Shown here one piece after another: positions 9,074 through 44,473 of a stretch of 64,000 nt of DNA. The stretch is from Isoetes taiwanensis (Eukaryota; Streptophyta; Lycopodiopsida; Isoetales; Isoetaceae): the NCBI GenBank assembly GCA_021234155.1, contig JAJEKV010000023.1:10179141-10243140 (forward strand), given 5' to 3'. The notes under the pieces were generated by a model. It was given only the letters and a program-made list of their open reading frames with translations. It did not search any database and had not been told where the DNA came from. How positions within the stretch are numbered: the first letter of the stretch is position 1; every line of letters starts with the position of its first letter. The translations under genes and the position numbers were made by a program.

Positions 9074-9094
9074 CATGGGCAGATGTGAACGTAG

Positions 9095-10167: not shown

Positions 10168-10476
10168 CTGCCAAGTTTTAGAGGGACCATTATGAAGAAA
10201 AATATGAGTGATATCACTCTTCCATATTATAGCAAGACCACCACTAGCCCCAACATAATCAATCCAAATGGAGGAGGAGTTAGGGTGAATCCATTCACCT
10301 AGATTGCTACACTCAAAAGATGGCAGCTCAATCTCTTGAAGAAGAATTATGTCAGCATTGTATAATTTGATCTGAGCAATGGCTCGTCTCCTTTTAAGAG
10401 GATCTTTAATGCCTCTAAGATTCCAGGATAAAATCTTCATATCCAGAGAGAGAAAGGGGAAGAACATGGAAATCAA
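10168..10476 (-). pseudogene. LINE-A A1 ORF2 start: endonuclease N-terminus
   Basis: Minus-strand MKILSWNLRGIKDPLKRR is the classic start of an APE-type LINE endonuclease. It is followed by LLQEIE, with the metal-binding Glu, and a GGLAIIWK segment. The frame appears to run on into an RT motif, but that is the junction with inserted LINE-B B1, not a natural fusion. The ORF1 stop lies a few bases upstream of the ORF2 start, the arrangement expected for coupled translation. Confidence 0.85.
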
Positions 10477-17302: not shown

Positions 17303-18160
17303 TGTAACAAATTTAGAGATAGTCACAGAAAACAATTATTCACTTAGGACAACGCAATCATTGTTTCATTGTAGATCAACATCACACTATAGCCTTAGAG
17401 TTTTAATTTCAAAGAACTTTCTCCATACCATATATTTTCTAGCTCAATCACAAAGTTTAGACATGGTCACATTAGTAAGCTTAGCTTCACATAATAATTA
17501 AAGCTATGAAGCAAACAACAAATCACCATTACTCATTTATCCCTTCAATGGTTATTCTTGCATTATGTGTATACTTCACTATGAATACAGTTTACAATGG
17601 AACCTTCAGTATTCGTCCTTCACAACCTGAATCGATCTGTTCTGCAATCACCCGAACTAAAGCTTCCCTATTTACAACTTCAATTTAATCTTAGCAGTCC
17701 GGCGGTGATGCCAGACCGCTAGCAACTTTCCGGAAGCAGCCAGATCTTCATGTCTGGTTTGTATTGGACCGAGCCAATTCAAATCGACTTTGGCTCCAAG
17801 CATCTCGATGGATCTTCGAATATTCCCTTGTATTGTTTCAAGGGTTTGCACCCTTAAAGCAATGGTTAATCATTAACCATGCAAACACCATATTTACTTA
17901 GGTCAATTTATTCAACCTAAATACGTCTTCACTTGCTCAGATAAATATATGAACTTGAACATATAATTGCAAGTCCCTGTTCTCACCATTCTGACTTCAA
18001 ACTTAGAGCATTTCTTTGCTTAGATCATTCCCCTGCCTTTATGCACAGATATCACCAGTGTTCTTCCATAGAATTTACTTAAGATAAAATAAGTAAATTG
18101 TGACATAACTCCAACAAAGATTATGATATGAACAATTTATTCTTCTCTATACTTCTCACA
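17303..18160 (-). repeat. copia-2 3' LTR
   Basis: An 858-bp LTR bounded by TGTAAC on the plus-strand left and CTCACA on the right. It matches 43,306-44,003 plus 49,507-49,908. On the minus strand it is preceded by the purine run gaaagggaaa, which serves as polypurine tract. The RNase H frame ends at 18,137, 24 bases inside the LTR. Confidence 0.92.
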
Positions 18161-21270: not shown

Positions 21271-22881
21271 TATGACGCTCCCAGAATATATACGACCCTC
21301 GGACGTATACATACGGGGACTTTCCCCTCCCATGGCGATCATCTCACCATGAGCAGGGCCCTCCGTCTGTTTCGGGCCATCTATGAAATGAGGCCCGAAG
21401 AAGGACACGAAGGGGTCATTCGGCCCACGCCTTCAATGGGACTCCTACGTCGCGGAAGCATGAATATAAGGGTTAGCACACAGCACGAATATACATAAAT
21501 AACCACCACGAAGGGTGGCGCATCCGTCCAAAATACCAACGGCATAGAATATGCATCTAATCCTAAGAAAACGCCCAAAAACCCAGGTTCTACCCCCGCT
21601 CGGACTCGGTGAGGATCGACCGACATTTGGGCCTCAAGAGATCAGCAGACCGGAGTCTTGGCATGGCGTTGGCTGGCATAGAACATCGGCTAGGGTTGTC
21701 CACTCCATCCGCCCCTCCCCGTGCACACTTTGCGGATGGGTCAATTCATGCTATGGCCGCTATAGCCTTTGGGAGAGACGCAGGTTCAAGGGATCACCCT
21801 TTTGAGCCTACTCCGGGTTCATGGCCTTTGGTCCGATGAGGCAAGGTGGGAAGCGTCCCCTTCGGAATCCGCGGTGGTTCCATGGGTGAGCTAGAGAATA
21901 CGTGCGCATCGGCGCTGACCCCCGCATCCGTGCCGACTTACTCACCCTAAATCTACTCAAAGTGCAAGGTGCTCCATACGGATCACACCTCTACACCGGG
22001 GAGTGTCGGACCCATACCCGGCCCCCACGTGGCCAGGCCATCGGGCCTAGCCCCTTGAGGGAGTCTCGGGGAGCCTTGTATACTGCAAGACCCCACCCCT
22101 CATGTCACCTTTGTGTTCCTTGTCTGGTGCTAAGCCAGACCATAGCATCTAGGACCCGGTGGGCTCTTGTGCACAGGCCGCATATAATGGGACTCTACAG
22201 GGCGCTAACTAGGAGCAAACTACAATACACGGTTCAGAGGTCTCTACCCCGTAATCCCCCGTTTGAGTCGATTAAACAAAGAACTAAACAATCCATCCTT
22301 TCAGATTAAGAACCAGAATTGAATATAAAGAGAACTTGCTTGTACAATCAAGGGTTAGTTTCTATGATTGAATCACAAAGAGAACAGAGAAACGGACACA
22401 ACCAAGCGTTATCTAGAATCCACATAGCCACCTACACGAATTACATTTGGACTCGTTCCCATGGGGGCCTCCATCTCCCGGGAGTTGAGAATTCATTTGT
22501 TGATTCACAGGAACGACTGGTATGGTGGCTCTCTGCTGGTGTATGATGGCGCTCAGCTCCTGGCCTTCCTTGGTCGATCTTCAGGAGTCAATCACGCGGG
22601 ATAGGGGTCAAGTTGGCATCCTAACTTGGCAACCCCCATCTTTGCCTAATCGATTGGGGCAGGTGGCGCCTTCCCAAACAATAATTAGCCTAATTAAGTT
22701 ATTATCTTTAATGTATTAAATTAGCATAGCTAATTTAATCCTTTTAAGAGTAACCCCCATGGTTACAATTAAGTTCCCATACCCCCATGGTGGCGTACCT
22801 TTAGGGGGGTGACGTGCTTGTATTTGTACATGTCCCGTATGAATACGTGACGTAGACCGTATAAATACGTGGAACGTCACA
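21271..22881 (-). repeat. Chromovirus 3' LTR
   Basis: About 1.61 kb, matched by 32,827-34,446 with scattered substitutions and small indels. On the minus strand it starts TGTGACG and its other end is CGTC(C)ACA in the 5' copy, mutated to CGTCATA here, so the termini form a TGTGACG/CGTCACA inverted repeat. Short open frames in both LTRs are incidental. Confidence 0.92.
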
Positions 22882-22894
22882 TTCTCCCCTCCTT
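22882..22894 (-). promoter_or_regulatory. Chromovirus polypurine tract
   Basis: Minus-strand aaggaggggagaa directly abuts the TGTGACG start of the 3' LTR. It is the expected plus-strand primer. Confidence 0.92.
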
Positions 22895-23395
22895 AAAAAT
22901 AATGCTGTCCTCAGCATTGGGGTTAGCTAATCGAATACATATAAATAAAGCACTCAATTAGAAAATGGAGTTAAGAAGATAACATTAACACGTTGAAATT
23001 ATAGTATTTCGGACAGTAATACATTGAAGTTGAAAATATCAAAGTACAAGCACCAAGGTGTCTTATACAAACTTATTATCAAGAGAGTGTAGGACCGAAG
23101 TCCGATTTAAAACATCCAGACAACAAAAATCACACATGTAGACAAAACCAATACGGGAAAAGTTGGGTCATCAGCAACCCTCTATACAAGGCAGGTGATG
23201 ATCTGTCCACTGGCCTGCACACATCAATATACCCGTAGGTTAATAATATGATTAAATTGTGGTTGAAGGGACCACCCCCTATAAATAAAAGAAAAAGTAT
23301 CTAGAAGGGAACCTATGATGTCTACGGCTTGCAATTCATTGTGGCATAAGGAATGTTCAGTTCCCCTTATAGCCGGAATGAACGCAGTCTATTTA
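22895..23395 (-). other. Chromovirus 3' untranslated stretch
   Basis: Five hundred bases between the end of the integrase/chromodomain frame and the polypurine tract. AT-rich, with no coding region or repeat recognised. Confidence 0.6.
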
Positions 23396-25037
23396 CTAGA
23401 TGCTTTCTAAGCAAGTCGCGGTCATGTCAACATCAACAATACACCACGTCCTAGAGAACATGAAGGTGATCTCATCATTGGTTATTATTATAATATACGA
23501 TGCATCTACCCCTCTAGAACATGCTTCTCGGCAAATCAAGCCTTCAAGCTTACCGCCGGGAGCGGGGTTGATAGCATCGTTGATGGTGCGGCCCTGAGTT
23601 TCCCGCATGAAGTCCGGGTAGTGCTTCTCAAGGTCTATCTTCATCACCCAGGTAGCATCTTCAACTGGTAAGTGCTTCCACTTGACCAAGTATTGCAACA
23701 TTTGAGTCCTTCTGGTCTGTTTGTAAGCTCGGTCAAGAAGAGCTTCGGGCACTATTTCCAGCTGCTCTTCAGACATTTCTAGGAGAGTTGGGGTATCCAA
23801 AACCTCGTCCGGATCAGGGGTGTGTTGCTTCAGAAGACTCACGTGAAAGACCTTGTGGATCTTCAAGCGGGGTGGCAAGTCCAAGCGATATGCCTGTTCT
23901 CCCACGCGTTCAGTAATCCTGAGCGGCCCAGCCCATCATCGGGTGCCAACTTCTTCTGATTACCAATTTTAAGCTTGACTTGTTTTACTTTGATCTTAAG
24001 CCAAACTGATTAAGCCCCACTGGAAGATTCGTGGGGTTCGGTGCTTATCTGTTAGACTCTTCTGACGACTGCGTGCGGCCAATAAGTAACCCCGAACTTC
24101 CTCCACCAAGGCCTGCATTTCTAAAAGGAGTTGTTGAGAGACCTCCACTTTAGAAACATGGTTATGCCAATGTGCGGAGTAAGACATTGATAGCCATAGT
24201 TTATCATGAAGGGAGACATCTTTGAAGACTCACCTTAAGATCTTGTTATAGGCGAACTCTACCAGATAAATATAATCCGCCCATTGTGACTGTTTACTCC
24301 ATACATAGCTTCGTAGCATATCTTCGATAATACGATTGACACGTTCTGTTTGACCATCTGTCTGAGGATGGTAAGCTGTACTCATGGCAAGCTTGGTCTG
24401 GATGGTGGCGAAGAAATCCTTCCAGAATGCACTGACAAACTTAGGATCCCTATCGACACAATTACTCTCGGCATCCCGTGCAACCTGAAAATTTCTTTTG
24501 CAAAGAGCAAGGCGGTGTCGGCGGTGTCCGTGGTGCGACATGGCGGAAGTGAGCCATCTTTGATAATTTGTCGACCACGACCATTAATGCATCATATCCA
24601 CGGAGAGTGCGTGGAAGGCCCACAATGAAATCCATGGTTATGACTTCCCACTTGGCATTGGGCACATCCAAAGGTTGCAACTCCCCTGGAACTCTTAATT
24701 GCTCAGCCTTGGTTTGCTGACAAACCTGACACTGCTTGATGTACCTAGCAATATCCTTCTTCATCGAAGGCCAAAAATAGCTGGAGCGGATCTTAAAGTA
24801 AGTTTTCATAAAACCCGCATGTCCCGCTATAGGGCTGTTGTGTGTGTCATGGAGAATCAGCTTTCGCACCCCTGAAGTCGCTGGAACACACAACTTATCT
24901 TTGTGATATAACAAATTGCCCTCTTTCTTATATGAATGGAATGCTTCACGTTCTTTATTGGTACGGGCTTCCTTACCCAAACTTTCCCAAATATTACAAA
25001 ATTCGGGATCGTGGCGGGTCATTCTATCGCTTCCCAA
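23396..25037 (-). pseudogene. Chromovirus integrase with chromodomain
   Basis: In minus-strand order: the zinc-binding HHCC segment (AGHAGFMKTYFKIRSSYFWP...CQVCQQTK), catalytic core with MDFIVGLP (first Asp), VIVSIGIP/DRDPKFVSAFW (second Asp, across a frame change near 24,470) and AYHPQTDGQTERVNR (Glu), and the GPY/F-like region GPLRITERVGEQAYRLDLPP. The chromodomain at about 23,720-23,600 reads MLQYLVKWKHLPVEDATWV. Frameshifts near 24,470, 24,230 and 23,990 split it, although residues around each active-site Asp and Glu survive. This domain order defines chromoviruses. Confidence 0.93.
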
Positions 25038-25040
25038 ACT

Positions 25041-28000
25041 TCATTTGGTGAGTGTGGAAATGGCGTTACAATGGGTCCGGGTTATGAAGGGATGACGTGA
25101 CAAAGCATCCGCAACCACATTGTGCTTTCCTGGCTTGTATACAATCTCGAAGTCATATTCCTCGAGGAATTCCATCCATCTTCGCTGACGGAGATTTAGA
25201 TTTGGCTGGGTGGATAGATAGCGGAGACTCTGATGATCCGTATCGAGCTGAAACCTTCTACCAAGGAGGTAGTGTCTCCAAATACGGAGAGCACGAACAA
25301 CTGCCAGCAACTCCTGATCATGGGTAGGATATCGCTGCTCTGCATCATTCATCTTCTTTGAATCATAGGCAACAACTCTCCCTTCCTGCATTAAGACTCC
25401 ACCGGTAGCTATCTTACTAGCATCGGTGGCTACCGATTTATCCTTTTCAGGATCAGGCAAGGTGAGGACCGGTGTAGATGTTAAAGCATCCTTGAGCTTC
25501 TGAAAGCCGACTTGGACTTTTGCTTTCCAATGTTCCATCCAATCCTTCATTTTCTCATGCCTTGTGAGATTGGTAAGAGGTGCGACAATTGTTGCAAAAT
25601 CCTTAACAAATTTCCGATAATATCCTGCGAGTCCCAAGAAACTCCGGACCTCTGAAACATTAGCTGGAATGGGCCAATCCTTTACTGCTTCTATCTTGGC
25701 TGGGTCCGTAGCAATTCCTTCTGCTGAAATAATATGCCCTAAATAGTCGACCCTCGGAGTGGCGAACTTGCATTTAGAAAACTTGGCAAAGAGCTGATGG
25801 CGTCTTAGCTTCTGCAAAGCCAAGCGAAGATGTTGTTCATGTTGCTGCAAGGTTTTACTATAGATGAGAATGTCATCAAAGAAAATGACAACAAAGTCAT
25901 CCAAGTATTGGCGGAAGATGTCATTCATCAACCGCATAAATGTTGCAGGGGCATTGGTCAATCCAAAAGGCATGACGGTAAACTCATAATGCCCATATCT
26001 GGTGTGAAAAGCAGACTTATGAATGTCCTCCTCCTTAATCCTTATCTGATGGTATCCGGAGCGCAAATCAATCTTTGAGAAATATTTTACTCCTTGTAAC
26101 TGGTCCATAAGATCATCTGCCCTAGGCAAATCATAGCGATTCTTGATGGTATGCTTATTGAGTTGCCTATAATCAATACACATCCTTAAGAAGCCATCTT
26201 TCTTCTTGACAAAAAGAATAGGAGCGCCAAATGGTGAAACACTGGGCTGAATAAACCCCAGGTTCAGTAACTCTTGTAGTTGTTTCTTAAGCTCCGCTAA
26301 CTCTGGAGGGCTCATTCGGTACGGGGCCTTGCTGGTAGGCTTAGTACCCGGTTCAAGAGTTATTTCACATTCTACCCCTCTGAAAGGAGGAAGCTTGTGG
26401 ATCTCATCTGGAAAAAGATCGCTAAATTCTCGAAGAAGGGTAGCAATGTCTGGTGCTAAGGCGTCGATTACTTGCTTCTGCTTGGAGTCAGACTCAATGG
26501 AGGCAAGTTTAATGAGGCAAAGGAGTTCATTCCTGCGTATAGCTTTTTCTAACTTGTTTATTGACATCGACTGCATAGCGGAGTGGAATGAATCACCTTT
26601 TATAGTCACACGTGCTCCATTAGCGGCGTTGAAGGTGACCTCCCGTTTCTCACAGTCTATGTTGGCCTTGGCAGATGCTAAAAACTCCATTCCAACAATA
26701 AGATCATATTTGCCAATGTCCATTAACTCAGCACCCAAGGCAACTGGTGCACCTGGCAACTGCATCTTAAGGTTAATACGGCGGCCATGAGTGTGTCTGA
26801 TCTTACCACTGGCTAATGTGACTGGCTTAGGTCGGGATCTCAACGTTTCCAGCTGCAGTACCTGGGCCATTCTAGGAGAAGCAAAATTATGCGTACTACC
26901 CGTGTCCATCAAAATTATGAAGGGCTTACTGTCTACTTGGCCTATTGTAGAAATAACAGAAGGCTGACTTTCAGCGTTGCCTGTTTCTATAGCGGCAAGA
27001 ATATGAGACGCACCGTGAATGTACTCGGGAGCCTCGTCCTCCGCAGGGAGATTGGACTCCAGATCTTCCCAATCAAGGTCGGCCATGGCCAGCTGGGCAG
27101 TCTGCGTGACGTACGGGCAATTCTGCATGAAGTGTCCAGGCCTCATACACCTGTAGCATGCCTTATCCCGGCGGAGCTGTTCTCTGGCCTCTTTAGGAAT
27201 GGACTGTAAGAGGCCCCGAACTTCCTTGCCGGCATTGTTCTGCTTATCTGGCGTGCTAAAGGCGACTTTCTTCTCCTGGCGGCCGTAAGAATTGTGCTGA
27301 GAGGGCCCCGGACTTGGCGAACGGGGTTTGTAAGGCGTGGACGGGCGTGGCTGCGAGTAAGGAGCAGGTCGCGGATACTGGTTCCTTGGCGTGTCCTCCT
27401 CGAGGCTTAATGCCTTAGCTTCCGCCTCTGCTACTGATTTTGGGTCTATGGCCTTGACCATGCGTTTAATGGATGGGGCCAACCCTTCAATGTAGCCCTC
27501 TACTGCCCTTTTTTCATTCATTCCTGGTACATACAACCTCAAGCGCATAAATTCATCCGTGTAGGCCTGAACGGACATGCCCTTCTGTTCCAACCTGTAG
27601 AAGGTCTGAATCTGTTGGCATTTGTGCGCACGAGGCACGTAATGCGATTTGAAAGCCTTAGCGAACTTCTTGAACTTGCACCTGCTCCTGTCCAGGTGCT
27701 TAGCTCTGGCATAACCCTTCCACCAAATACGGGCAGCTCCGGTAAGGTTGGTGGTGGCAACCTTCCCTGTATCCTTCTCCGTCATTCCATAGGACTTCCC
27801 AAACTCCTTCATTTCGTCCAACCAAGATTCTGCATTCAAGCCTCCTCTGGATTTCCCATCAAACTGAGCCAACTTCCGGTTCTTCCATATACTAGTTATG
27901 GCTGTATCAACGGTTTTTCGGTATTCCTTATCCTTACGCCTCGAATGGTCACTGTCTGATAGCGATGACCCAGAAGACACCGAAGTGGTTGAATGTGAGG

Positions 28001-28073
28001 AAGCGGCGCTATCCTTAGAGGAACTTCGATGACGCTTAGCATGAGTCCTCCTTTGTGCAGTGCAGGGGCTAGC
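25041..28073 (-). CDS. Chromovirus gag-protease-RT-RNase H polyprotein
   Basis: One uninterrupted frame of 979 codons from 27,980, open back to 28,073. Gag (retrotrans_gag, [14 protein letters not shown]...FKSHYVP), CCHC knuckle [15 protein letters not shown], aspartic protease [15 protein letters not shown] with [25 protein letters not shown] and catalytic [11 protein letters not shown], and RNase H with [28 protein letters not shown] and VVADALSR. No in-frame ATG precedes WLDEMKEFG, so initiation may need splicing, frameshifting or a non-AUG codon from upstream. Having no stops in 979 codons means this part stayed intact until recently, unlike the integrase. Confidence 0.95.
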
Positions 28074-28533
28074 TCACGGGAGGAGATGGCTGTTGTCAGT
28101 GTGTGGACTCAATGGTCGCGGAGGTAATTCCGGTCCGGCCCTCCGAAGTTTGTTGCGGTGGATTGGTATGCAACACATAGGCCCTGTAATTCGCCCGAGT
28201 TGCCTTTTTATTAACATCAATTCTGTTCAGGGGTGAGCCCTCTTGGCGTTGGAGGGTGTTTTCTGCCGCGGCGTTACGCACACCAGATCTATAGGAGCAT
28301 TCATGAATATATAAGCAGATTTACATTAATGTACAATCCCTTTTAAAATAACCGAGACAAAAAGAATATACAAACAGAAGACAATATTTTTATTTCATTC
28401 AAGTTGAGTACAACAACAAGTTGATTGGTACATGGGTTAAGACAAAAGTAGGTATGATACAGTGGAAACTTTTAAAGTTCTACTCGCACACAGCGTAACA
28501 GCAACAAAGAAAACATAACGGAAGAGATCAGGC
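28074..28533 (-). other. Chromovirus spacer between ORF d and gag
   Basis: A 62-codon minus-strand frame (28,281-28,096, MRNAAAENTLQRQEGSPLNR) ends about 20 bases before the open part of gag and is the only candidate for an upstream start. The rest, 28,282-28,533, is AT-rich and holds the 3' end of ORF d. No other feature seen. Confidence 0.4.
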
Positions 28534-29022
28534 CTAGGGGTTGGCGAAGGGGTACAGGATCGCGTAGCGGGTACTCTCCCGTACAGCTCGGACGAGTTTA
28601 TAGCGTGCCCAGGCTTGGACAATGATTGCTTGGTATTCCCATGTTGGGCTGATAATGAGAAGGTTAAAAAGCCTTCGCATAGCATAAAAGAGTTGCCAAA
28701 GGTGGTCGTTGGCGTCCTCGAAAGCCTCGTGCCTGCTCATATTCCAGTAATCCCAGGTACGACACAGGGTCATCTTCAGATCTTCGAGAGCTCGGTCCCT
28801 AAGGATGTTAACTATCTCCAGCCCTTTGTCAGGGTCGTAGGGCTCTCCTGGTGGCGGTGGTTCGATCTCATAGCCTTCCTCCCACTCTGGATATTCACCA
28901 TATCTCTGGCCATAGTCTTGATCCGGTGGTCCGGGATCGTCTCTCCTAACCATATCGGTGATTCTCTCCTCATATTCCCAAATGGTTCCCTCTGCAACAT
29001 AGTTAAAATGAATAGAGAACAT
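28534..29022 (-). CDS. Chromovirus extra ORF d, unknown
   Basis: A minus-strand frame with an acidic, Tyr/Pro-rich first half (YGEYPEWEEGYEIEPPPPGE) and a helical, aromatic second half (TLCRTWDYWNMSRHEAF). A good splice acceptor (taactatgttgcag then agggaacc) lies near 28,991, so the likely exon starts there and the first dozen codons of the open frame may be intronic. It could be the last exon of a gene including ORF c. I do not recognise the family. It is codirectional with gag-pol. Confidence 0.5.
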   Translation of the reverse strand: MFSIHFNYVAEGTIWEYEERITDMVRRDDPGPPDQDYGQRYGEYPEWEEGYEIEPPPPGEPYDPDKGLEIVNILRDRALEDLKMTLCRTWDYWNMSRHEAFEDANDHLWQLFYAMRRLFNLLIISPTWEYQAIIVQAWARYKLVRAVRESTRYAILYPFANP

Positions 29023-29231
29023 TTTGTAATGCCACTATATTCTAAACTTTAATGCTTTTGAAGAGGATGTTATAAAAGAACAATTCAGTTATACTCATCA
29101 AGAGAACTTTGTATTTGATAAGTAAATAAGGTACATCATTTTTCAATATGGTCCAAACAGTTGCCAATCCAAAATCTCATAAATACACGTATATATATAT
29201 ATATAAACAAAAATTGTATAGCACCATTAGT

Positions 29232-29747
29232 CTAGGAACTAGGCCCTGCCTCTTTATCCCTGGCCCTAGGAGGTGGTGGAGGCGGTCGGTGTCGCAGCAG
29301 AGTTATCCCAGGGTCTACTGTGGCAGCCGCAACAGATGCAACCTCCGGTGGATATGCAACGGCCAATGGGGCTGCCGTGAGGAGCTTCATTCCCATCCAA
29401 GGCGCAATATCCTGACCCAAGGCCGTCAGGGCGAGATCCTGTCGTACGAGTACATAAGTAAACGTACGATAGGGAAGCTTCTTGTGGCCGGCCATTGTAG
29501 AAAGTGCACGGAGGGCCCACCATGAAGCTTCAGCCTCTGGTCCTAGATCCCGGGCTATGAAGAGGACTTGCCCGTGTCGGAAGGCCGACAAAAAGAAACG
29601 GGTAAGGTGGTTACCCAAAGACCTTCCCTTATGGAGTCTCGTGATGTCTTTGCTTCCTTCCTTATCCAAGTCCATGGGGACTTCTTCCTCCTTGAGCTCC
29701 CTGTTGCTCCTCCTTCTTGTGCTAGGGGTTATGATATAAATCTTCAC
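29232..29747 (-). CDS. Chromovirus extra ORF c, unknown
   Basis: A 171-codon minus-strand frame with a charged N-terminus (RELKEEEVPMDLDKEGSKD), a central hydrophobic/aromatic part (HLTRFFLSAFRHGQVLFIA, LPYRTFTYVLVRQDLAL) and a proline-rich end (RHRPPPPPPRARDKEAGPSS). It lies between ORF b and ORF d in the same orientation, with an intron-like gap to d. No family recognised. It may be an exon of a single b-c-d gene. Confidence 0.5.
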   Translation of the reverse strand: MKIYIITPSTRRRSNRELKEEEVPMDLDKEGSKDITRLHKGRSLGNHLTRFFLSAFRHGQVLFIARDLGPEAEASWWALRALSTMAGHKKLPYRTFTYVLVRQDLALTALGQDIAPWMGMKLLTAAPLAVAYPPEVASVAAATVDPGITLLRHRPPPPPPRARDKEAGPSS

Positions 29748-29859
29748 CCCTCATCATCCGAGCCGGAGGGAATCTCAACCATATTGATGTTTGGAACGTG
29801 AGGTCCCATAGTCGCGGAAGGCATCTCAGTGCGGGGTTGCTTATTTGGTTCCTCGCATC

Positions 29860-30645
29860 TTAAGTCTCGGCGTAATAGAGTCTCCGCCCGGCTCTATGGT
29901 CTCCCCGACGGAATGAAGGCGCTGGTGCACCTCCGAAGGAAGCTTCGGTAGAAGTGAAATCGATAAAATCATCCATACAATACTCCCGCAAGCTCGTAAA
30001 AGTACATGGTCTTTGCGCTTGCGCCGAAATCCGCCACCATATGATACGTCCAGATAATATCATCCAAGAGAAGGTACTCTTGCCCTTGGTGATAGATAAC
30101 TGGAAGGCCGTCTAACCCTGACAAGCCTATAGCTTGTTCACGGCGCGGTGGTAACTCCTCCGCTAGCTCTTTCCAACGGGCAAAGTCGCCCATACCTATA
30201 TGCTCGTCATCCCCCTCCTCGGAGGACTCAGGCAGTTTGCCCTTCTCTACAGGCAAGGTTTCATCCTCAACGTATTGGTCCATGAGGATGGCTAGGCTTA
30301 AAAGTAGCTTCCGGATATTGCGCCCACGATCTTTGGACCATCGGCGGTGTTTACCCCATCGGAGTTTCCCCTTGGGGACGTCATAAGCGCGTGTGTGTCC
30401 CCGCCTAACATCTGCCACTACTATCTCCGCTCCAAATACAATTGGGGAGGATCCCCGGAGGAATACACGAGGAAGCATTTCCTCCATGTAGAAGTCAAGG
30501 AAGGAATCCGTGAGTCCGGGATGCCGCTGATACTTGTGAGGAGGTCTATCGCGTTGGCATAGCAAAGGTTGCAGCAGGTCGAAGGGAACTTGTGGATCCC
30601 ATTTCTCTCCATCATGGTACCAAAGGCAAAGGTCGGCGGAGCCAT
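29860..30645 (-). pseudogene. Chromovirus extra ORF b, unknown, frameshifted
   Basis: ATG at 30,645 lies in a strong context (agcgccATGGCT), starting MAPPTFAFGTMMERNG. The frame then shifts near 30,550 into a 198-codon stretch (30,565-29,969) with DSFLDFYMEEMLPRVFLRGS, an RWGKHRRWSKDRGRNIRKLL basic segment and a QEYLLLDDIIWTYHMVADFG segment, and shifts again near 29,985 to end at 29,860. Globular composition, no membrane span, no recognised domain. A promoter-like spacer precedes it, so it may be transcribed separately from ORF a. Confidence 0.5.
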
Positions 30646-30825
30646 GGCGCTAGAAGGGAGGAGAGAGGAAAAAACGTTTGAAATAACCCTTAAAGTCCCC
30701 TTTTAAACCCTTTTTTAAAAGCTGACGTCAGCACTTTAGTTTATTATTAACATAAAAACCATTAAACTTTTTAATTCAAAATATTACAAAAAAAATATTT
30801 ACAAATGCGGACTCCCGCAAGTAAG
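30646..30825 (-). promoter_or_regulatory. Promoter-like spacer before ORF b
   Basis: AT-rich spacer between the histone H3 stop and the ORF b ATG. On this strand it contains the perfect palindrome gctgacgtcagc (30,721-30,732; TGACGTCA, a bZIP-type ACGT core), then a tttaaaa TATA-like run about 10 bp further, then a pyrimidine-rich leader cctctctcctcccttc before the ATG. Order and spacing look like a small plant promoter. Inferred from motifs only. Confidence 0.45.
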
Positions 30826-31140
30826 CTAAGGTTGCTCCCCCCGTATCCTAGGTGAGGGCTAGATCCTTAGGCATTATGGTGACCCTCTTTGCGTGGATAA
30901 GCGCAAGATTGGCGTCACCAAAAAGTGCCACCAAGTAGGCTTGGCAAACCTCTTGGGAGCCAAAATTGCAAAGGTCTGGAAGCGAGATCGGTCTTGAAGC
31001 TGGCACAATGCGATCTCCCCGTACCGGCTACGAAAAAGGTAGCTTCCTGATCAGAAGCTCTGTAGACTTCTGAAATTTGATTTCCGCCAAGGCCGCGATA
31101 CCGGTCGGGGTACGTGAGGCTTCCTCTCGTGCCAGGGCTT
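30826..31140 (-). pseudogene. Histone H3 coding sequence captured by the chromovirus
   Basis: Minus-strand translation gives unmistakable H3 core blocks in order: GIAALAEIKFQKSTELLIRK then LPF (about 31,100-31,030); REIA-like GEIAL; FKTDL; RFQ with [36 protein letters not shown] (near 30,890); and the terminal RIRGE two codons before a stop at 30,826. These match alpha-N through the C-terminus of canonical H3, where LLIRKLPF and [12 protein letters not shown] are invariant. The blocks lie in different frames because of several 1-nt indels, so no intact H3 is encoded here. A CENH3 origin is disfavoured because the core keeps MPKD and KLPF. An H3-like tail may extend to about 31,290 (ADRRQQR, RSTGRLR). 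It sits at the 3' end of ORF a, same strand as gag-pol. Confidence 0.9.
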
Positions 31141-32063
31141 CTGAGGCGCCCCGTCGATCGATTGGGCCTCTTAGCCCCAACAGCCGGTCGGGAGCTATCC
31201 ACCCGCTGCTGCCTCCGGTCAGCACTCGTCTTCTTCCCAAAAGCCCCGACAGTCCTTAGTTTCTCTTTGTACTGACTGTCGGCCTTATGGGCTAGACCCT
31301 TCTTCCGGTGCTTAACCTTCTGATGCGTCGGGATTGGGCCCGGCCCACTCCCAGATGCTCCTCCATCTTGCTGGTCCCAATGGTCTTGCCGGTCCTGCTC
31401 CTCCTGCTCGAGCTTCTCCCGTTCTTCCCGGGCCCTCCTCAAATCTTCCTGAATCTGGACAAACAGCTGGGCTGCAGCACGGCGATTAAGTTCAGCTTGG
31501 TACCACTGTGGTCGCAGACCCATGTCTATCTGAATGGTTATCAGATAGTCGATGCTGATATCGGGGATTTCTCCCCATACAAAACTGTTGGACTCCTCCT
31601 GCCAACGGTATGGAGGAACCTCAATGGCTCTGCCATCAATGACGGCAAAGCCGTCCCCGAGGTACCTGTATTCCCTTCCACGGGCTGCCGTATCTGCCCT
31701 CTCGATCTCTCTATGATCATCCTCTCTGGCCAAACCCCTAATACGGTCGGCCTCTGCCCTGATATCTTCCTCCTCTGTATGGCCTTCCTGCTCGGGAGGA
31801 TAGAATTTGATGAGCATCATAACCATATCAGGTTGCTCAACAATGGTATAGGGAAGCTGGCGAAGGTTCAGCCGGATGAGGAATGGCTCTGAGAAGTGAT
31901 AGATAGGATATGGAATCCTATCGTTGTTCTCAAACCGGTTCACCAGCTCATCTAACAAGATATCAATGAGGGCTGGGTCAGTAGCCATGTGCTTGGCAAT
32001 CATGGCGTAGATCTCCACGATGCTCAAGGTAGTTGGATCTGGGGCGCTCTTGGTGATGGCCAT
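31141..32063 (-). CDS. Chromovirus extra ORF a, joined to histone H3
   Basis: ATG at 32,063 in good context (gctATGGCC) starts MAITKSAPDPTTLSIVEIYA. Residues 1-110 are helical and hydrophobic (IDILLDELVNRF, FLIRLNLRQLPYTIV); about 200-245 is a charged Arg/Glu coiled-coil-like stretch (EDLRRAREEREKLEQEEQD); then a Gly/Ser/Pro linker and a basic segment (HQKVKHRKKGLAHKAD) lead directly into the H3 sequence. The raw frame stays open to 30,915 but leaves the H3 frame. It looks like a roughly 270-residue unknown N-terminal part fused to H3. No family recognised for the N-terminal part. Confidence 0.6.
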
Positions 32064-32811
32064 AGCGGCGCTATGATGGAAAAAAAAACGGGTAATGAGG
32101 CGCTGGCGGCGAAGGGGATGACAAAGGGGGCGCTAAGATGCACAAGGCACAAGGGCGCAGGAGCAAGGTCCGGTCTGGTGGCGATGGCTGAGGGCGGCTC
32201 AGGCGGTTGGAGGCGCGGAAGCAAAAGCAAATGACAAGAAATGGTTTATTAAACGGCCACTTAACTTTTAAAATTTCAAATTTTTTTCCTTATTAACTTC
32301 GAATTTTTATTATTAAAAAAATTATACGGCGGAAATATCGAACCTACTGGCCGGGGCCGGTTGCATTATACTTCGCCTCGACTTCGGCGTCGTCGAAAAG
32401 CAAGCAAATACCGAAGTTGACTGGCGGACCCAGCGTTGACTTCGGGTCCGGCGGGCCCGGCGCCGACAAACATTTCGGTATACGCCTTTGACTACAAAAC
32501 TACAAAAGGCAAGCGGGCCCGAAGTTTGTTTTGGGCCTGCCCTTGACCATTTTAAGCCTAGAGTTGACTGTTCTAGGGTAATTCGAACGCCCGATCCAAT
32601 GGAACCATCATCTTCGTCATTGAGCTACCCATCGACACCTGTTAGGCCTCAATCTTGGGCCCTCCACTTCAAAGCTACAATTTCTTAACTTAACCTAACA
32701 CCAAGCCAAACAACAAAGAGAACTAACGACACATTGACTTAGCCTCCTCCTAACTACCGGTGCTACGAAGTTAGTGTTTGGCGGTGCTATGATTTCGAGC
32801 AACCAGAAATC
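32064..32811 (-). other. Chromovirus leader between primer site and ORF a
   Basis: About 750 bases without a supported gene. The part nearest ORF a (32,230-32,340) is very AT-rich with ttaataataaaaatt runs and may be a promoter, parallel to the spacer before ORF b. The rest is GC-richer and contains a gccggggccgg-like patch. Confidence 0.5.
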
Positions 32812-32825
32812 ACGGCTCGATACCC
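32812..32825 (-). promoter_or_regulatory. Chromovirus primer-binding site
   Basis: Minus-strand gggtatcgagcc follows the 5' LTR by one or two bases. It matches the initiator-Met-tRNA complement TGGTATCAGAGCC apart from one missing base and one substitution. Confidence 0.75.
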
Positions 32826-32826
32826 T

Positions 32827-34446
32827 TGTGGACGCCCCGTAATATATACGACCCTCGGACGTATACATACGGGGACTTTCCCCTCCCATGGCGATCATCT
32901 CACCATGAGCAGGGCCCTCCGTCTGTTTTGGGCCATCTATGAAATGAGGCCCGAAGAAGGACACTGAAAGGGGTCATTCGCCCCGCCTTCAATGGGACTC
33001 CTACGTCGCCGGAAGCATGAATACAAGGGTTAGCACACAGCCGCTAATATACATAAATAACCACCACGAAGGGTGGCGATCCGATCAAAATACCAACGGC
33101 ATAGAATATGCATCTAATCCTAAGAAAACGCCCAAAACCCAGGTTCTACCCCGGCTCAGACTCCAGTGAGGATCGACTGACGGCTGGGCCTCAAGAGATC
33201 AGCAGACCGAGTCTTGGCATGGCGTTGGCTGGCATAGAACATCGGCTAGGGTTGTCCACTCCATCCGCCCCTCCTGTGCACACTTTGCAGATGGGTCAAT
33301 TCATGCTATGGCTTCGCTATAGCCTTCCGGAGACGCAGGTTCAAGGGATCACCCTTTTGAGCCTACTCCAGGTTCATGACGCCTGGTCCGATGAGGCAGG
33401 TCGGGGAAGCGTCCCCTTCCAGAATCACAGTGGTTCCATGGGTGAGCTAGAGAATACGTGCCGCATCAGCGACCCCCGCATCCGTACCCGACTTACTCAC
33501 CCTAAATCTACTCAAAGTGCAAGGTGCTCCATACGGATCACACCTCTACACCCGTGGAGTGTCGGACCCATACCCGGCCCCACGTGGCCAGGCTATCAGG
33601 CCTAGCCCACTGTAGGAGTCTCAGGAGCCTTGTATACTCGTGCAAGACCCCACCCCTCATGTCACCATTGTGTTCCTTGTCTGGTGCTAAGCCAGACCAT
33701 AGCATCTAGGACCCGGTGGGCTCTTGTGCACAGGCCGCATATAATGGGACTCTACAGGTCGCTATCTAGGAGCAAATTACAATACACGGTTCAGAGGTCT
33801 CTACCCCCCCGTAATCCCCCCGTTTCAGAGTCAGATTAAACAAAGAACTAACAATCCATCCTTTCAGATTAAGAACCAGAATTGAATATAAAGAGAACTT
33901 GCTTGTACAAACAAGGGTTAGTTTCTATGATTGAATCACAAAGAGAACAGAGAAACGGACACAACCAAGCGTTATCTAGAATCCACATAGCCACCTACCT
34001 GAATTCTGGCTGGACTCGTTCCCATGGGGCGCCTCCATCTCCTGGGAGTTGAGAATTCAGCTGTTGATTCACAGGAACGACTGGTATGGTGGCTCTCTGC
34101 TGGTGTATGATGGCGCTCAGCTCCTGGCCTTCCTTGGTCGATCTTCAGGAGTCAATCACAGGGATAGGGGTCAAGTTGGCATCCTAACTTGGCAACCCCC
34201 ATGCTGCCCAATCGATTGGGGCAGGTGGCGCCTTCCCAAACAGTAATTAGCCTAATTAAGTTATTATCTTTAATGTATTAAATTAGCATAGCTACTAATT
34301 TAATCCTTTTAAGAGTAACCCCCATGGTTACAATTAAGTTCCCATACCCCCATGGTGGCGTACCTTTAGGGGGGTGACGTGCTTGTATTTGTACATGTCC
34401 CGTATGAATACGTGACGTAGACCGTATAAATACGTGGAACGTCACA
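32827..34446 (-). repeat. Chromovirus 5' LTR
   Basis: A 1.62-kb LTR. On the minus strand the U3 start carries three ACGTCA/TGACGT cores within 75 bp (gtgacgttcc, tacgtcacgta, cacgtcacc), separated by atttatacgg, and is conserved in the 3' LTR. Ends TGTGACG and CGTCCACA. Confidence 0.92.
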
Positions 34447-35635
34447 GTCAGTAGTGAATTTATAGATTTGTTTGGTATTTTGGACTCCTCTGCTACTGAC
34501 ATGTTTACCAAAAATGCTATTTTAATACATTTCCCGCGGGCTTGCCCAAATCAAGGGGATATCAAGAATTGGATTACTAAATCCCAGCACATTCCTATTC
34601 TTTCTATTCTTAAGCTGGATAAGAAGACTTATCAAATTGTATGCAGAGATGAGGTTTGCGTCAAGCAAATCCTAAGAAGGAAGTTGGATTTCATCAACAA
34701 TGCTCCTTTTTATATCATGAATTGGTCCCCTAATTTAATACCAGGCTCGGAGGAGGAAATTCAAACTTCTACTTGGCTTTCTTTCCCGAATCTCCCCCCA
34801 GCCTTTTGGACTCGCTCCCATCTATATGCCCTCTGCGAATCTTTAGGGGAGGTCCTTGAAATTAATATCCCCCAAACTAACTTTCCCACGGTTTGCATAG
34901 CTAAGAGAATTAATTCGGATTGGAAAAAGATAGATAGATAGATACATAGATAGATACATAGATAGATTTTTACGTCATGCCACATTGGCAGCGTCCATGA
35001 GGACATATGACGGACCCCCAGAGACTTGAACACAAGATCTCTTAGTTGCTAACCCAATGGACTAGCCAATAAACCGAACAAGGGGGAACAAAGAAGCTTA
35101 AGATCAGAGTCAAGGCTGATGAATTCATGGACCTCACTATTAATTACTCTAAATGGCCGATCCATGACCCAGTGGCGATCCCAATCCAAAAGCTTAAACA
35201 GGTATGGGTGCCGAAGGTCAATAACAAGGAAAACTCAGGGGTTGAAAGGGATGTGGTTGAATCTGATAAGAGCATTCAAGCTCAGATTACCCCTTACCAA
35301 AGAGAGAACGATGAAATTCCATCGAAGGTAGAGCTTCATGATGACATGGTGGTCCTCATCAAAAATATAAACCTGGCCGTGAGAATTGACACAGGAGATA
35401 TTATCTTCACTTTTCCTAATTATTCTGACCCCGTTCAGAATGAAGATGTTGCAGATACCCGGCTGGAAACTCAAGGTTATGAGAACCTTCTCGACTCAGA
35501 AGACAAGGGATGGAACATAGTGGACAGGAAAAAGGGCAGAGGTAAGAAGAAACTTAATTTCAGCTCAAGCAGGTCGAGCCCAAGAAAACAGACCATCCAG
35601 GCGGGGATGGCTTTAGGGAAATATAAATATTAATG
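34447..35635 (+). pseudogene. LINE-A A3 ORF1, C-terminal part
   Basis: After the chromovirus, ORF1 resumes SSEFIDLFGILDSSATDMFT, followed by a DUF4283-like gag region (WITKSQHIPILSILKLDKKT, FINNAPFYIMNWSPNLIPG, WLSFPNLPPAFWTRSHLYAL). Near 34,928 (SDWKK) a SINE interrupts it, and coding continues from about 35,095 (KLKIRVKADEFMDLTI) to KYKY and a stop at 35,635. The stop overlaps the ORF2 ATG as TAATG, suggesting termination-reinitiation. Confidence 0.8.
34928..35085 (-). mobile_element. tRNA-derived SINE with GATA-type tail
   Basis: On the minus strand tggctagtccattgg (35,069-35,055) fits a polymerase III A box and tgttcaagtctc (35,033-35,022) a B box, about 36 bases apart as in tRNA genes. 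A short unrelated body follows and the element ends in a (tatc/tatg)n run at 34,966-34,928. It interrupts LINE-A A3 ORF1 between SDWKK and KLKIRV. A weak flanking similarity (ggaaaaaga / ggaacaaagaag) may be the target duplication. Confidence 0.7.
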
Positions 35636-38600
35636 GATAGAGATATTAGTTGTATAACATGGAATCTCCAGGGTATCAATAATAATATTAAAAGGGAAAG
35701 AATGAAGGTTTGTCTCTCATCCCTCAACCCTGATTTTTTGTTTATCCAGGAACATAAATTACACGATTCTGATCATGAGAAAACCATTAGTAAAACTCTT
35801 CCTCCTAATTATAGTATTTGGTCTATTCCTGCTAATGATTCTTCTGCAGGTATTGCAATTGCCTGGAAGAACTATTTAAACATTTCTGATACCTATATGA
35901 TCAATAATTGAGATGGTAGGTGGCAGATTCTTCTATGTACCATTTATAGAATAAAGCTTGCTCTGGTAAATATCTATGCCTTTAACAATCCTACAGAGAG
36001 AGTGGACATATGGAAAGGGGTGAAGAACAGTCTAGATAATCTTGAGTATGATGAATGTATTTTGGGTGGATATCTTAACATGGTTACTAACAGTTTTATG
36101 AGAAACAAGAATTTCAAACCTCTTGGCAGGAAGGAAAAGGAGGCGTGGCTGGAGCTCACTGAAGCCACAACTTAAATCTAGCCAGAACTAAGCCAGATTC
36201 TTATAGCTGGACAGATAAGATAATTGACCCTACATTATGCCTTCATGATAGGTATTATCTCTCTGAAAATCTGGGAACAACAGTAGTAGGGTCAACAATT
36301 TGGAAGGGTACACCCTCTCGGATCATTACCCCCAACAGTTGAGAATTATGGCTATCAATCAGTCCAAGAACAAGAGGAAAACCTATTTCAAGCTTAATAC
36401 CAGTCTACTCGATCATGAAGAATTTATGGATAGGCTACAGGAGGTCTTAAATAAATTCCCCAAACCCATTGGTCACTCTGGTTGGATGTTCTGGTGGATT
36501 CAAGTTGCTAAGGCAATCAAGAATTGGCTCAAGGAATGGGGGAAGCAAGTGCATCTTAATAAGCTCTCCTCCTTGCAGAAATTGAGAGATAGTCTGCCCA
36601 ATGCTCCTGAGGAGGAGAAGGATAACATCAAAGCAGAAATCGAGAAGGAAGAAATTAGGATAGCTGAAGGGTGGAAGCTTAAAGCCAAGATAAGAGAGAT
36701 AAAGGATGATGAGAGAAGCAGCTCCAAATACTTCTTTGTAAAAGCTAAAGGCAAAATTAGGAAGAATCATATTTTTGAAATAAGAGCTGGGGATGAAGAC
36801 ATTACAAATGAAGACCAGATCAAAATTGCTGCAGCTAACCATTTCAAAAACATTATGGGCACCAATCAAGACAGCACCCAGGAGAATATGAATAGGTTTA
36901 TAAATCTCCAAGCAAAGGTAAGTATGGAGGAAAATTCTAGCATCGAGAGGCCCTTCTCCAATGAGGAGATTTTCCAAATTGCAATAGAAATGGAAAAGGG
37001 TAAAAGTACGGGCCCTGATGGGCTACCAGTGGAATTTTTTTTATCAAAGTATGGCCTATTTTAGGGGATAGCTTTACTAATTTGGATAATGAGTTCAGGG
37101 ATGTAAAACGCTTGGATGCGAGAATCAACACGAGCTTCATCACGCTCATCCCTAAGACTGATATGCCAGTTACTCTCTCGGATTACAGGCCTATCTCTCT
37201 AACCAATGTTATTTATAAGATTATTTCAGGTACAATTGCCAGAAGGCTTAAGAGTGTGCTAGAAAGGATTATAAGCACCACCCAAGCTGCCTACTTAAAG
37301 GACAGATTCATCTTAGACAACGTAGTCACAGCTATGCTGGGTCTGAACTGGGCTAAAGACACCAATCAAGATATAGCACTAATCAAGGTGGATATTACCA
37401 AGGCTTTCGATACGGTAAGTTGGGATTTTTTATTCAAATGCTGTAGAGCCTTAGGCTTCTCGGACGAGGTAATTCTCCTTTTCAAAGCAATACTCTCAAA
37501 TTCTAGATCTTTTGTTTTAATTAACGGAGAATGCGGCCCCTTCTTCCCCCTGCAAAGAGGGGTAAAGCAAGGATGCCCACTAGCTCCATTCCTATTTCTT
37601 ATTATTATGGAGGCTCTTCATGGTAAATTAGAAGAAGCAAAAAGATCTAATGTGATCCAAGGTCTCACCCTCCTTGATAATGGAGAAATGGATCAAATCT
37701 TGAATGGACATTTTGCAGATGACACATTCCTCTTAGTATCGATGGACAACAGATCCCTTACCAACACTCAGAGCATTTTGGAAGAATTTGGTGTAGCATC
37801 GGGATGTAAAATCAATCCTATCAAATCTAAAGTTGTAGCCAGAGATCAGGTAAAAGGAGAGCAAACAGCTGCTCTTCTGGGCTGTAAGTATATCCTCCCT
37901 ACCAGTGCTTCCAAGATTCTAGGGATCCCCTTAGCCCTTAAAGGTAGTCCCTCAGATATTTGGTCTGATATTATTGAGAAATTTCAAAGAAAAGTTGATA
38001 GTTTAAATTCCAAGTATATCTCTAAGCAGGGTAGAGCTATTATTGCAAATTTTATTATCTCCTCCTCACATGTCTACCAGTCATCCGTCATTCTTGCTCC
38101 GAAGAAAGTGACATCCAAATTACAGAGCATCATTGGGAGATTTATTTCTTGCGGGCAGAACAGAAGGTGCTGGACTCCTGTGGCCATGGAGAAATGCTGC
38201 AAAAGCAAAAGTATGGGGGGGCTTGGAGTCATAAATATTGAGAAGCAGGGGATTGCCCTCGCTGCCAAATATCTCTATAAGGCAGCCTTTAATCTGATCA
38301 ACCATCCAATCTCTATTATTATTAGGCATTACTTGAGCAGATGTCTCTCTTATGGATGGAGGAAGTTAAATTTAGTACTACCCCACTTATTTTCTTCCCG
38401 ATCAAGGTCCCTAACTCTATCCCTGGTCTCATTAAGAAGTGGATCCGAGCCTGGAACCTGGTCAAGGGGATGTTTACTTGGAAAGAGGGGCTGTCCATGA
38501 ACCAATTCATTTTTTGGAATCCGGCTCTTTTTACTAACGACTCTTCCTTATGTTTAGCATGCCACTTCCCGGAGCAGGCAAGGATTTGGGGGAGCAAAGG

Positions 38601-39631
38601 AATTCTCTACATCACAGACATGTATGATGACCAAGGAATCATTCCCTTTCACCTTTCAGCCCTGGAGGGGGAAGGGAGAAATACTGAGGTGCTCTACAAT
38701 AATATTTGTCTAACGCTCTCTCAAGGGAGATGGACAGACGACGATGTCAATTGGAATTATAATGGAATCAGTGGCTTCAATGTCAAAAATGCCTACAAAT
38801 ACCTGATGAGAGATCAGAAACTCTCCATGCACAGCAAGTGGCAGACAGAGGAGGAGAGATGCACAAAGAACTTAAAGTTCATGTGGTCAAGCCCAATTCC
38901 CCCAAAAGTGAAGTCTTTCATGTGGCAGCTTTGGCACAGGGCTCTGGCCACTAATCATAAGAGATACAGGATTCATATGGCAGATTCGTATGTCTGCACC
39001 AGGTGCATTAGTCACAGGGAAGATGAGGAACACCTTTTCAGATCATGTTTCTAGTCGGAATGGGTCCTCGAGCTTGCATCTAACAATTTTGGATACGACC
39101 TTAACTCGATTGATTCACTGGAGTTCTTTATGCCAAATACTCCTAAAGATTGGAGGATTTATATTCTGCTCTGGCGTATTTGGAAGGGGAGAAATAATTT
39201 CATCTTCAATTGTGATATAACTCACCCAGAGGCTATTATCAAACAAGTTCAATACGACATCAAATGGATTTTGGCTGCTGTATAGACTCAATTTTGTTTC
39301 TAACTTATATCTTTCTGGTATTACAGGAATTATCTTTGTACTGGTGCGCAAACTCAAATGGAAGAGGATCGATGCGGCAACTAATCAGCAATGGATCAAA
39401 GTGTTCGGCCCTCCTAATCTTTATGGTCATGAAGAGCCTTGCCTATGCAACTGCTGCTGTGACCAGAACCCAGATGCAAGAAGAGGAATGCTTTGTGAGG
39501 CAAAGGACAGCAAAGGTCGATTTAATATGGCTAAAGCAGAATCCTGCATGTGCGCCTTCTGTGTGCTATCGGTTATGGTCAGAGGCAGGGGCAGGAAATC
39601 CAGGAATATCAACCTCAAGTCATACTTTTAG
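35633..39631 (+). pseudogene. LINE-A A3 ORF2: endonuclease, RT, zinc region
   Basis: The endonuclease starts ISCITWNLQGINNNIKRERM with FIQEHKL, and VNIYAFNNPTERVDIW after a stop near 35,910. Its late SDHYPQQ is at 36,320. The RT at 36,960-38,300 has FITLIPKTD, YRPISLTNVIYKII, KVDITKAFDTVSWDF, GVKQGCPLAPFLF and HFADDTFLL (the catalytic pair is present, with F for Y). A frame change near 38,340 leads to 38,341-39,054 with PPKVKSFMWQLWHRAL and CTRCISHREDEEHLFRSC, a zf-RVT pattern. The tail to 39,631 is Cys-rich (EPCLCNCCCDQNPDARRGML). Stops near 35,911, 36,175 and 37,064 inactivate it, yet most blocks are long and clear. Confidence 0.88.
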
Positions 39632-43304: not shown

Positions 43305-44473
43305 ATGTAAGAAATTTAGAGATAGTCACAGAAAACAATTATTCACTTAGGACAATGCAATCATTGTTTCATTGTAGATCAATATCACACTATAGCCTTT
43401 AGAGTTTTAATTTCAAAGAACTTTCTCCATTTTCTAGCTCAATCACAAAGTTTAGGCATGGTCACATTAGTAAGCTTAGCTTCACATAATTTTAAAGCTA
43501 TGAAGCAAACAACAAATCACCATTACTCATTTATCCCTTCAATGGTTATTCCTGCATTATGTGTATACTTCATGAATACAGTTTACAATGGAACCTTCAG
43601 TATTCGTTCTTCACAACCTGAATCGATCTGTTCTGCAATCACCTGAACTAATGCTTCCCTATTTACAACTTCAATTTAATCTTAGCAGTCCGGCGGTGAT
43701 GCCAGACCGCTAGCAACTTTCCGGAAGCAGCCGGATCTTCATGTCTAGTTTGTATTGGACCGAGCCAATTCAAACCAACTTTGGCTCCAAGCATCTCGAT
43801 GGATCTTCGAATATTCCCTTGTATTGTTTCAAGGGTTTGCACCCTTAAAGCAATGGTTAATCAATAACCATGCAAACACCATATTTACTTAGGTCAATTT
43901 ATTCAACCTAAATACGTCTTCACTTGCTCAGATAAATATATGAACTTGAACATATAATTGCAAGTCCCTGTTCTCACCATTCTGACTTCAAACTTAGAGC
44001 ATTAGGTGTAAATTTTCTCAGGTTTTTTTCCCAATGGGTTTTATGGTTTTTTCTATATAAACTTATGAAGCTGGCTATAAGTTAGTAAAACATGATCTAT
44101 AAATGGTGAGAATGGGGTGCTTTCCCAATCGAGTGTGAGGGCGATGAGGACAATCACCACGAGAGAACGGGTGGAACAAAACATATATTTCCCCTTATAA
44201 TGTCTTCACACTGAGTCTTTAGTAGGTACACTCCTTAACAAGTATACAACAATAGAAACAAACAATAAATTTATAATGAAATCATAAAAGTCTATTCAAT
44301 TGTAAAATACACTAGATAATAACAAATAGAGTCCATTCCTATATAACAATAATAAGAGTCAATTCCTTAGCAAGTACACTGGTTAACTATAAGAAAATTA
44401 TAATAATATGATTGTCACACACTAAATAGAATCTTAATTCTAATCATGAACTTAATTTTAATCATGATGAGCA

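Follow-up and report, generated by a model that had tools for sequence, protein, structure and literature searches.

A family of Ty3/gypsy chromoviruses in the lycophyte Isoetes taiwanensis almost certainly encodes a conserved protein of its own in which the product of an additional open reading frame, ORF a, is fused to a histone H3. Our overall explanation, which rests on sequence comparison and to which we give a probability of roughly 0.6, is that this old fusion acts as a tail-less nucleosomal H3 variant. The copy from which the family is described here lies in the window, by which we mean the whole analysed stretch of 64,000 nucleotides, and has the following features.

21273..34444, minus strand: Ty3/gypsy chromovirus with ORF a-H3, flanked by identical 9-bp sequences
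32831..34444, minus strand: 5' LTR, which differs from the 3' LTR by 74 mismatches and 29 gap events
31296..32063, minus strand: ORF a head of 256 codons with the novel domain, the coiled coil and the start of the linker, open in the window copy
31241..31295, minus strand: linker from the ORF a head to the H3-derived part
30826..31240, minus strand: C-terminal part of ORF a, derived from H3 and broken in the window copy
29232..30649, minus strand: ORF b, in two open pieces in the window copy
28534..29034, minus strand: further open frame of 166 codons upstream of gag
25041..28073, minus strand: gag, protease, reverse transcriptase and RNase H in a single open frame of 1,010 codons
23396..25040, minus strand: integrase part, interrupted
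23606..23752, minus strand: chromodomain, type II by eye
22880..22894, minus strand: purine-rich tract adjoining the 3' LTR, recognised by eye
21273..22879, minus strand: 3' LTR

ORF a, the H3 part, ORF b and the 166-codon frame all lie 5' of gag in the same sense, and a Pfam search with the 166-codon frame gave no match. The pol domains follow the Ty3/gypsy order with protease, reverse transcriptase and RNase H preceding the integrase, as RVP_2, RVT_1 and RNase H were found within 25,041-28,073, the integrase zinc-binding domain (PF17921) within 24,462-25,040 and a chromodomain at the integrase C-terminus (PF00385, E = 1.9e-8, score 34.6 against a cut-off of 25.1). The LTRs and the target duplication claimed in a preliminary description of this DNA are indeed present, the former at about 21,273-22,879 and 32,831-34,444 as expected of a chromovirus and the latter as the identical 9-bp flanks; the target duplication usual in Ty3/gypsy chromoviruses is 5 bp. 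Both LTRs are about 1.6 kb long, with TGACG at the start and CGTCA at the end (3' LTR) or nearly so. Of the primer site and polypurine tract named in the same description the tract could be recognised by eye, whereas the primer site, located just inside the 5' LTR, is a loose match to the motif of the tRNA-iMet type. Terminal inverted repeats and a hAT transposase, the marks of a hAT transposon, are lacking and LTRs and gag-pol are present instead. As judged by eye, the first and the last residue of the chromodomain cage are non-aromatic, giving the domain a type II look according to the type definition in the available text of PMC3059260. The element therefore probably does not read H3K9 methylation via the classical cage, so that from the general background that chromodomains bind H3 marks the presence of the domain holds here but its direct application does not. 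Elsewhere in the window a pair of repeats (17303-18012 and 43306-44003, 26 kb apart and 96% identical) encloses the gypsy element together with Copia-like open frames and perhaps marks nested elements. Open frames resembling LINE-type reverse transcriptases by eye are located at 34408-39054 and 2467-10488, one of them adjoining the gypsy element. From 62814 to the window end at 64000 there is a dense array of tandem repeats, whose units measure about 130, 218 and 348 bp.

In the window copy the H3 blocks stand in order on the element's sense strand, as had been claimed, covering 31,240-30,832 of the minus strand with E = 2e-19 in a tblastn search with H3.3, for which the reversed window used as control gave no match at E 1. 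When frameshifts are allowed for, H3 residues 1-135 can be aligned throughout and 79 of the 127 codons in the alignment are identical, and its score of 267 against a maximum of 56 among 60 shuffles shows that the likeness is not due to chance. The same alignment requires 10 frameshift steps and contains one stop, and the core alone differs from the nearest open copy by six frameshifts and one stop. Thus the blocks are real, but the H3 coding sequence that had been proposed for the window is not a single reading frame, being spread across three frames and broken. The frame of ORF a itself stays open across the H3 part as far as 30,915, for the most part out of frame with H3; the idea of an overprinted tail, with the ORF a frame kept through H3, was dropped as other copies have H3 in the ORF a frame. 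In score, identity, frameshifts and stops the window copy resembles simulations of neutral decay at about 0.15-0.2 substitutions per site, its H3 core has a pN/pS of 1.02 against the nearest open copy, and the codon preference in the window (0.007 for the ORF a tail versus 0.133 for the head) fitted a decayed relic as well.

The damage to this copy is patchy, with the LTRs, H3, ORF b and integrase between 21273 and 34444 being hit and the gag to RNase H frame and the ORF a head being open. Compared with the open copy L002, the region between about 31,190 and 29,590 shows one to five gaps per 100 bp; there is a single gap in total from 32,290 to 31,190 and none in the 200 bp below 29,590. Uniform ageing does not fit 29 gap events in the LTR pair next to an open gag to RNase H frame of 3 kb, and for this reason a dating of the window copy by its LTRs was set aside. 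The pattern rather suggests conversion or an assembly error. That the H3 breakage stems from errors in assembling a high-copy repeat and not from real decay has, in our estimate, about even odds: besides the patchiness relative to L002, it would agree with an assembly built from nanopore R9.4.1 reads and polished with racon and pilon, as stated in the available text of PMC8566536, but conversion by a decayed copy would give an identical picture.

The genome (1,658,258,908 bases in 1,110 contigs) was searched for further copies, giving 1,063 first-look candidates for the H3 segment, 3,723 for the ORF a head (148 of them scored) and 45,258 for gag-pol (45 scored), figures which are not copy numbers. 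The H3 segment is multi-copy, and the best 40 of its 1,063 candidates that were scored are near full length at 81-100%. For a closer comparison 88 loci were fetched, eight from the H3-segment search (the window copy included) and 80 of the 148 ORF a matches, which were taken down the score list so that the sample favours well-preserved copies. H3 is present in all 88, 80 of which had been picked by ORF a alone. In 37 of the 88, head, linker and H3 can be read without interruption from the methionine to the H3 stop, over 404-419 codons; in the other 51 the fusion is not open in this sense, with two being open through H3 from an unrecognised start and 49 being broken or ending elsewhere. One of the 37 (L069) lacks 11 core residues, leaving 36 full-length cores for some of the counts below. 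In all six open copies checked for it (L002, L014, L053, L072, L080 and L088) the same LTR ends just upstream of the leader, and in five of the six gag-pol follows at the expected distance. Several of the 88 loci (L001-L088) show an open ORF a head beside a heavily broken H3 part. As such copies are many, some of them may need no H3 or may depend on H3 supplied in trans, and from their sequences there may be a lineage that has lost H3.

Selection on the fusion was estimated by pairwise NG86 comparison of the 37 open copies, whose pairwise values are not independent of each other. Constraint is strongest in the H3 core, with a dN of 0.018, a dS of 0.51 and a ratio of 0.035 (666 pairs), followed by the ORF a head with 0.077 (665 pairs, one being dropped as saturated or undefined) and the coiled coil plus linker with 0.218 (666 pairs). 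Within the 36 full-length cores the ratio is 0.022 for the alpha-N helix, 0.042 for alpha-1, 0.025 for alpha-2 and 0.030 for alpha-3, and 0.060 and 0.022 for loops 1 and 2, respectively. Constraint is weaker at residues 37-43 (0.12) and 58-63 (0.215), and the last four H3 residues reach 1.06, an estimate based on few synonymous changes. As a control, 52 loci outside the 36 were compared with their nearest open copy. Pooled over the 36 loci whose cores are broken by a frameshift or stop, pN/pS was 0.38 (from 0.02 to 1.02 for single loci), in contrast to 0.057 for the 16 loci with open cores and 0.066 for open copies against their nearest open copy, so the method does see relaxed selection where the frame is badly broken. 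Both checks proposed along with the initial claim, one looking for further copies that are bounded by LTRs and keep the ORF a-H3 fusion intact, the other testing for selection on the H3, have therefore come out in its favour, with 37 of 88 fusions open, the LTR upstream in six of six and a core dN/dS of 0.035. A second conserved orphan before gag, beside ORF a-H3, is ORF b (28534-30649), which in two other copies reads as one uninterrupted frame of 434 codons or more and has a dN/dS of 0.082 (24 copies, 276 pairs); no relative of it was found in Pfam and none in the PDB at E 1.

To look at the linkage from the side of the polymerase, we asked for the fusion upstream of the scored gag-pol matches. 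For at least 16 of the 45 a listed ORF a or H3 match lies 2.7-6.3 kb upstream on the same strand, and for 15 of the other 29 the expected place of ORF a-H3 was fetched. Homology to the fusion was found at 12 of these 15 loci and reaches the H3 part in 11 of them (L116, L118, L119, L120, L123, L124, L125, L126, L128, L129 and L130), ending within the ORF a head in L117; at the remaining three no ORF a or H3 was seen at the expected place, with ORF b only at L121 and nothing at L122 and L127. The copies L128, L129 and L130 belong to deeper subfamilies. Their head and linker are 30-34% identical to L002 (over 130, 305 and 310 positions), which is from the subfamily of the window copy, but their H3 cores are 84-88% identical to it over 99 positions. 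Between L129 and L130 the identity is 44% over 431 positions with H3 included. These sequence comparisons show that the family comprises at least three deep subfamilies with the ORF a-H3 fusion, in which strong purifying selection maintains the H3 fold while the head has diverged.

For the origin of the H3 we compared the element cores with 15 intronless host H3 genes that are 97-99% identical to H3.3, a set obtained by a search that would miss intron-bearing H3 genes. The host genes (L089-L103) fall into four protein types with a glutamate at position 77, and one intronless gene has T31 and H87, a plant H3.3 pattern. Since the host too has intronless H3 genes, absent introns were dropped as a sign of capture from mRNA. 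In an IQ-TREE reconstruction the 36 element and 15 host cores form the two sides of one branch with a support of 100/100, and with six deeper-subfamily cores and 14 of the 36 the split between element and host is recovered with 100/99; a FastTree analysis run before had supported the element clade with just 0.774. This split fits one old capture before the subfamilies separated, which is also the simplest reading of the fusion in all three subfamilies, though the trees are unrooted and contain H3 from Isoetes taiwanensis only. At synonymous sites the differences between element and host have reached saturation (pS 0.92, compared with 0.58 between host genes), indicating that the capture is old. 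The inference that a host-type H3 was captured and joined to an extra ORF is supported by the 37 open fusions among 88 copies and their core dN/dS of 0.035.

In the encoded protein a head of some 200 residues is followed by a coiled coil, then by a basic linker and finally by the H3 body, which is clear from about residue 37 and has a looser likeness to H3 from about residue 26. Five fusions from three subfamilies match PF00125 with E values of 1.7e-40 to 3.2e-42, the fold being a core histone fold of H3 type (140.7 bits against a cut-off of 26.4), and in the PDB L002 is matched best by H3.3 with E 7.3e-53. In 34 cores from the wider subfamily of the window copy the identity to the host core is 86% on average (range 82.8-88.9%). 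All 34 have F54, T86, F87, I89, A102, G105, A107 and L124 in place of the host residues, and A125 and P135 are each present in 33 of them. These ten positions differing from the host take in the chaperone loop at 86-89 and the changes may weaken normal deposition. Centromeric H3 (CENH3) has a diverged core and a longer loop 1, and this identity was rejected as the 34 cores align to H3 without insertion at 82.8-88.9% identity to host H3. The canonical modifiable tail with K4, K9, K14, K18 and K23 is replaced by the linker, so that K4 and K9 are without counterpart. In most copies read the lysine of an [AG]K[ST]xP motif aligns at H3 K27, with GAKTVP, GGKSIP or AGKTLP in the three subfamilies where H3 has ARKSAP; a few copies depart from it. 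A single-sequence fold of the ORF a head predicts helices with low confidence (mean pLDDT 46.8). Among 7,000 candidates for ORF a in the protein database none reached E 0.001, and its best PDB match has E 0.21. No relative was obtained from IMG/VR with ORF a, with gag-pol, with part of ORF b or with two diverged fusions as queries, a result of little weight as exact short peptides are needed and gag-pol was missed, too.

As H3 occurs in 88 of 88 copies and is part of 37 open fusions, and as the core is constrained, the subfamilies are deep and the element cores form one group, we regard the fusion as a gene of the element and not as a chance insertion. A processed H3 pseudogene that landed in a single element copy would explain the 9-bp word common to both flanks of the H3 part, but a flank word of this length was reached in 57 of 1,000 shuffles, a poly(A) was not seen by eye, and the same junction is found in 37 open copies with an H3 that is multi-copy and under purifying selection, leaving this origin a negligible chance. 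The preliminary description had itself named a lone copy with a processed pseudogene and its own target duplication as the picture expected from chance, and the segment is multi-copy instead. Very improbable, too, is a captured relic decaying neutrally as a passenger in the family. Taken alone, the window copy fits neutral decay, both in the simulations at about 0.15-0.2 substitutions per site and in its pN/pS of 1.02, and such a relic was our first reading from the window; for the family it was overturned by the whole-genome search, with 37 of 88 copies open throughout, a core dN/dS of 0.035 and cores kept at 84-88% where the heads share about a third of their residues, while it may still hold for the window copy.

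For the role of the gene product we weigh two readings. In the reading that we prefer, the fusion would pair with host H4, enter the nucleus through the H3-H4 chaperone route and become part of nucleosomes as an H3 variant with an N-terminal extension and no tail, by which the element head would be displayed on chromatin. There the head could anchor complexes of the element for integration and/or copies of the element could be kept from H3K9-type silencing, an escape that is conceivable because such a nucleosome would be without the usual lysine 9. The alpha-N helix of H3 contacts DNA only in the nucleosome, and both alpha-N and loop 2 matter mostly inside it. As these nucleosome-specific regions are as constrained as those facing H4, we consider it slightly favoured that the fusion enters nucleosomes. 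The main rival, which we rate as rather unlikely, is a role in transport or packing via histone chaperones, where the fusion would bind H4 and chaperones or nucleic acid and the particle or cDNA would be condensed or carried into the nucleus, with the fusion not being stably nucleosomal. It would agree with ORF a being the first ORF after the LTR and before gag, with the constraint on the H4-pairing helices and with a head and coiled coil that could be a self-assembly part according to the low-confidence model (mean pLDDT 46.8). The constraint on alpha-N and loop 2, regions with mostly nucleosomal roles, is like that on the rest and argues against it and for a nucleosomal H3 variant.

Core histones encoded by parasites are known from viruses, such as the bracovirus H4 with an extended tail and the histones of giant viruses, but these are viruses of animals or protists and not retrotransposons, and their histones are not known to be fused to a retroelement ORF. 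The nearest precedent found is a hAT transposon of Pyrenophora tritici-repentis with the histone H3-like gene H3L, described in the available text of PMC3538342 with 26 very similar copies. Both are families of transposable elements with an H3-like gene (PF00125), and H3L corresponds fully to neither H3 nor CenH3, its tail being altered as well. It differs in being an ORF of its own in a DNA transposon with terminal inverted repeats, for which the authors suggest possible drift, whereas the Isoetes element is an LTR retrotransposon with a head fusion, many diverged copies and strong purifying selection. Among LTR elements, Gypsy elements of orchids carry an AlkB-type RNA demethylase ORF according to a screen of 121 angiosperm genomes (PMC9289625, available text). 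They, too, have acquired a host-type domain and retain it in an extra ORF, for which a role in host-element conflict has been proposed, but the domain is an enzyme in its own ORF2, whereas the lycophyte element has a histone joined to an ORF at its 5' side. The additional ORFs of the plant elements Grande, RIRE2 and Retand are also conserved in most family copies but mostly occupy the stretch from pol to the 3' LTR, in either sense or antisense orientation, and the word histone has no occurrence in the main text of PMC7264820, as far as available. LTR element families of bdelloid rotifers carry accessory domains (GDSL esterase, DEDDy exonuclease) in an acquired ORF3, which differs in its position and in the enzymatic nature of the domains, and in the available main text of PMC5408684 histone is likewise absent. 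Capture of a histone by an LTR element had been called very unusual beforehand. This applies to the retention of a histone, which is rare, but not to capture as such, since gene capture by plant LTR elements is common, with 672 genes in rice and 1,343 in sorghum (PMC3726574, available text). A shallow search of open-licence full texts, as far as accessible, found no histone described in a retrotransposon. Captured accessory ORFs are known, and this search gave no description of a histone as cargo or of such a degree of retention.

Chromoviruses are known for reading chromatin, and a retrotransposon lineage keeping its own histone could write it. Tentatively, the sequences would be compatible with an old clade of LTR retrotransposons that loads its own H3 variant and writes its own chromatin, in the form of K9-less nucleosomes bearing an element protein that would resist silencing or mark integration sites. 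If chromatin is written by the elements, the arms race between silencing and transposons would become testable at the level of the nucleosome. With their many diverged copies in one genome they also provide natural data on which positions of H3 are essential without a tail and with a large domain attached.
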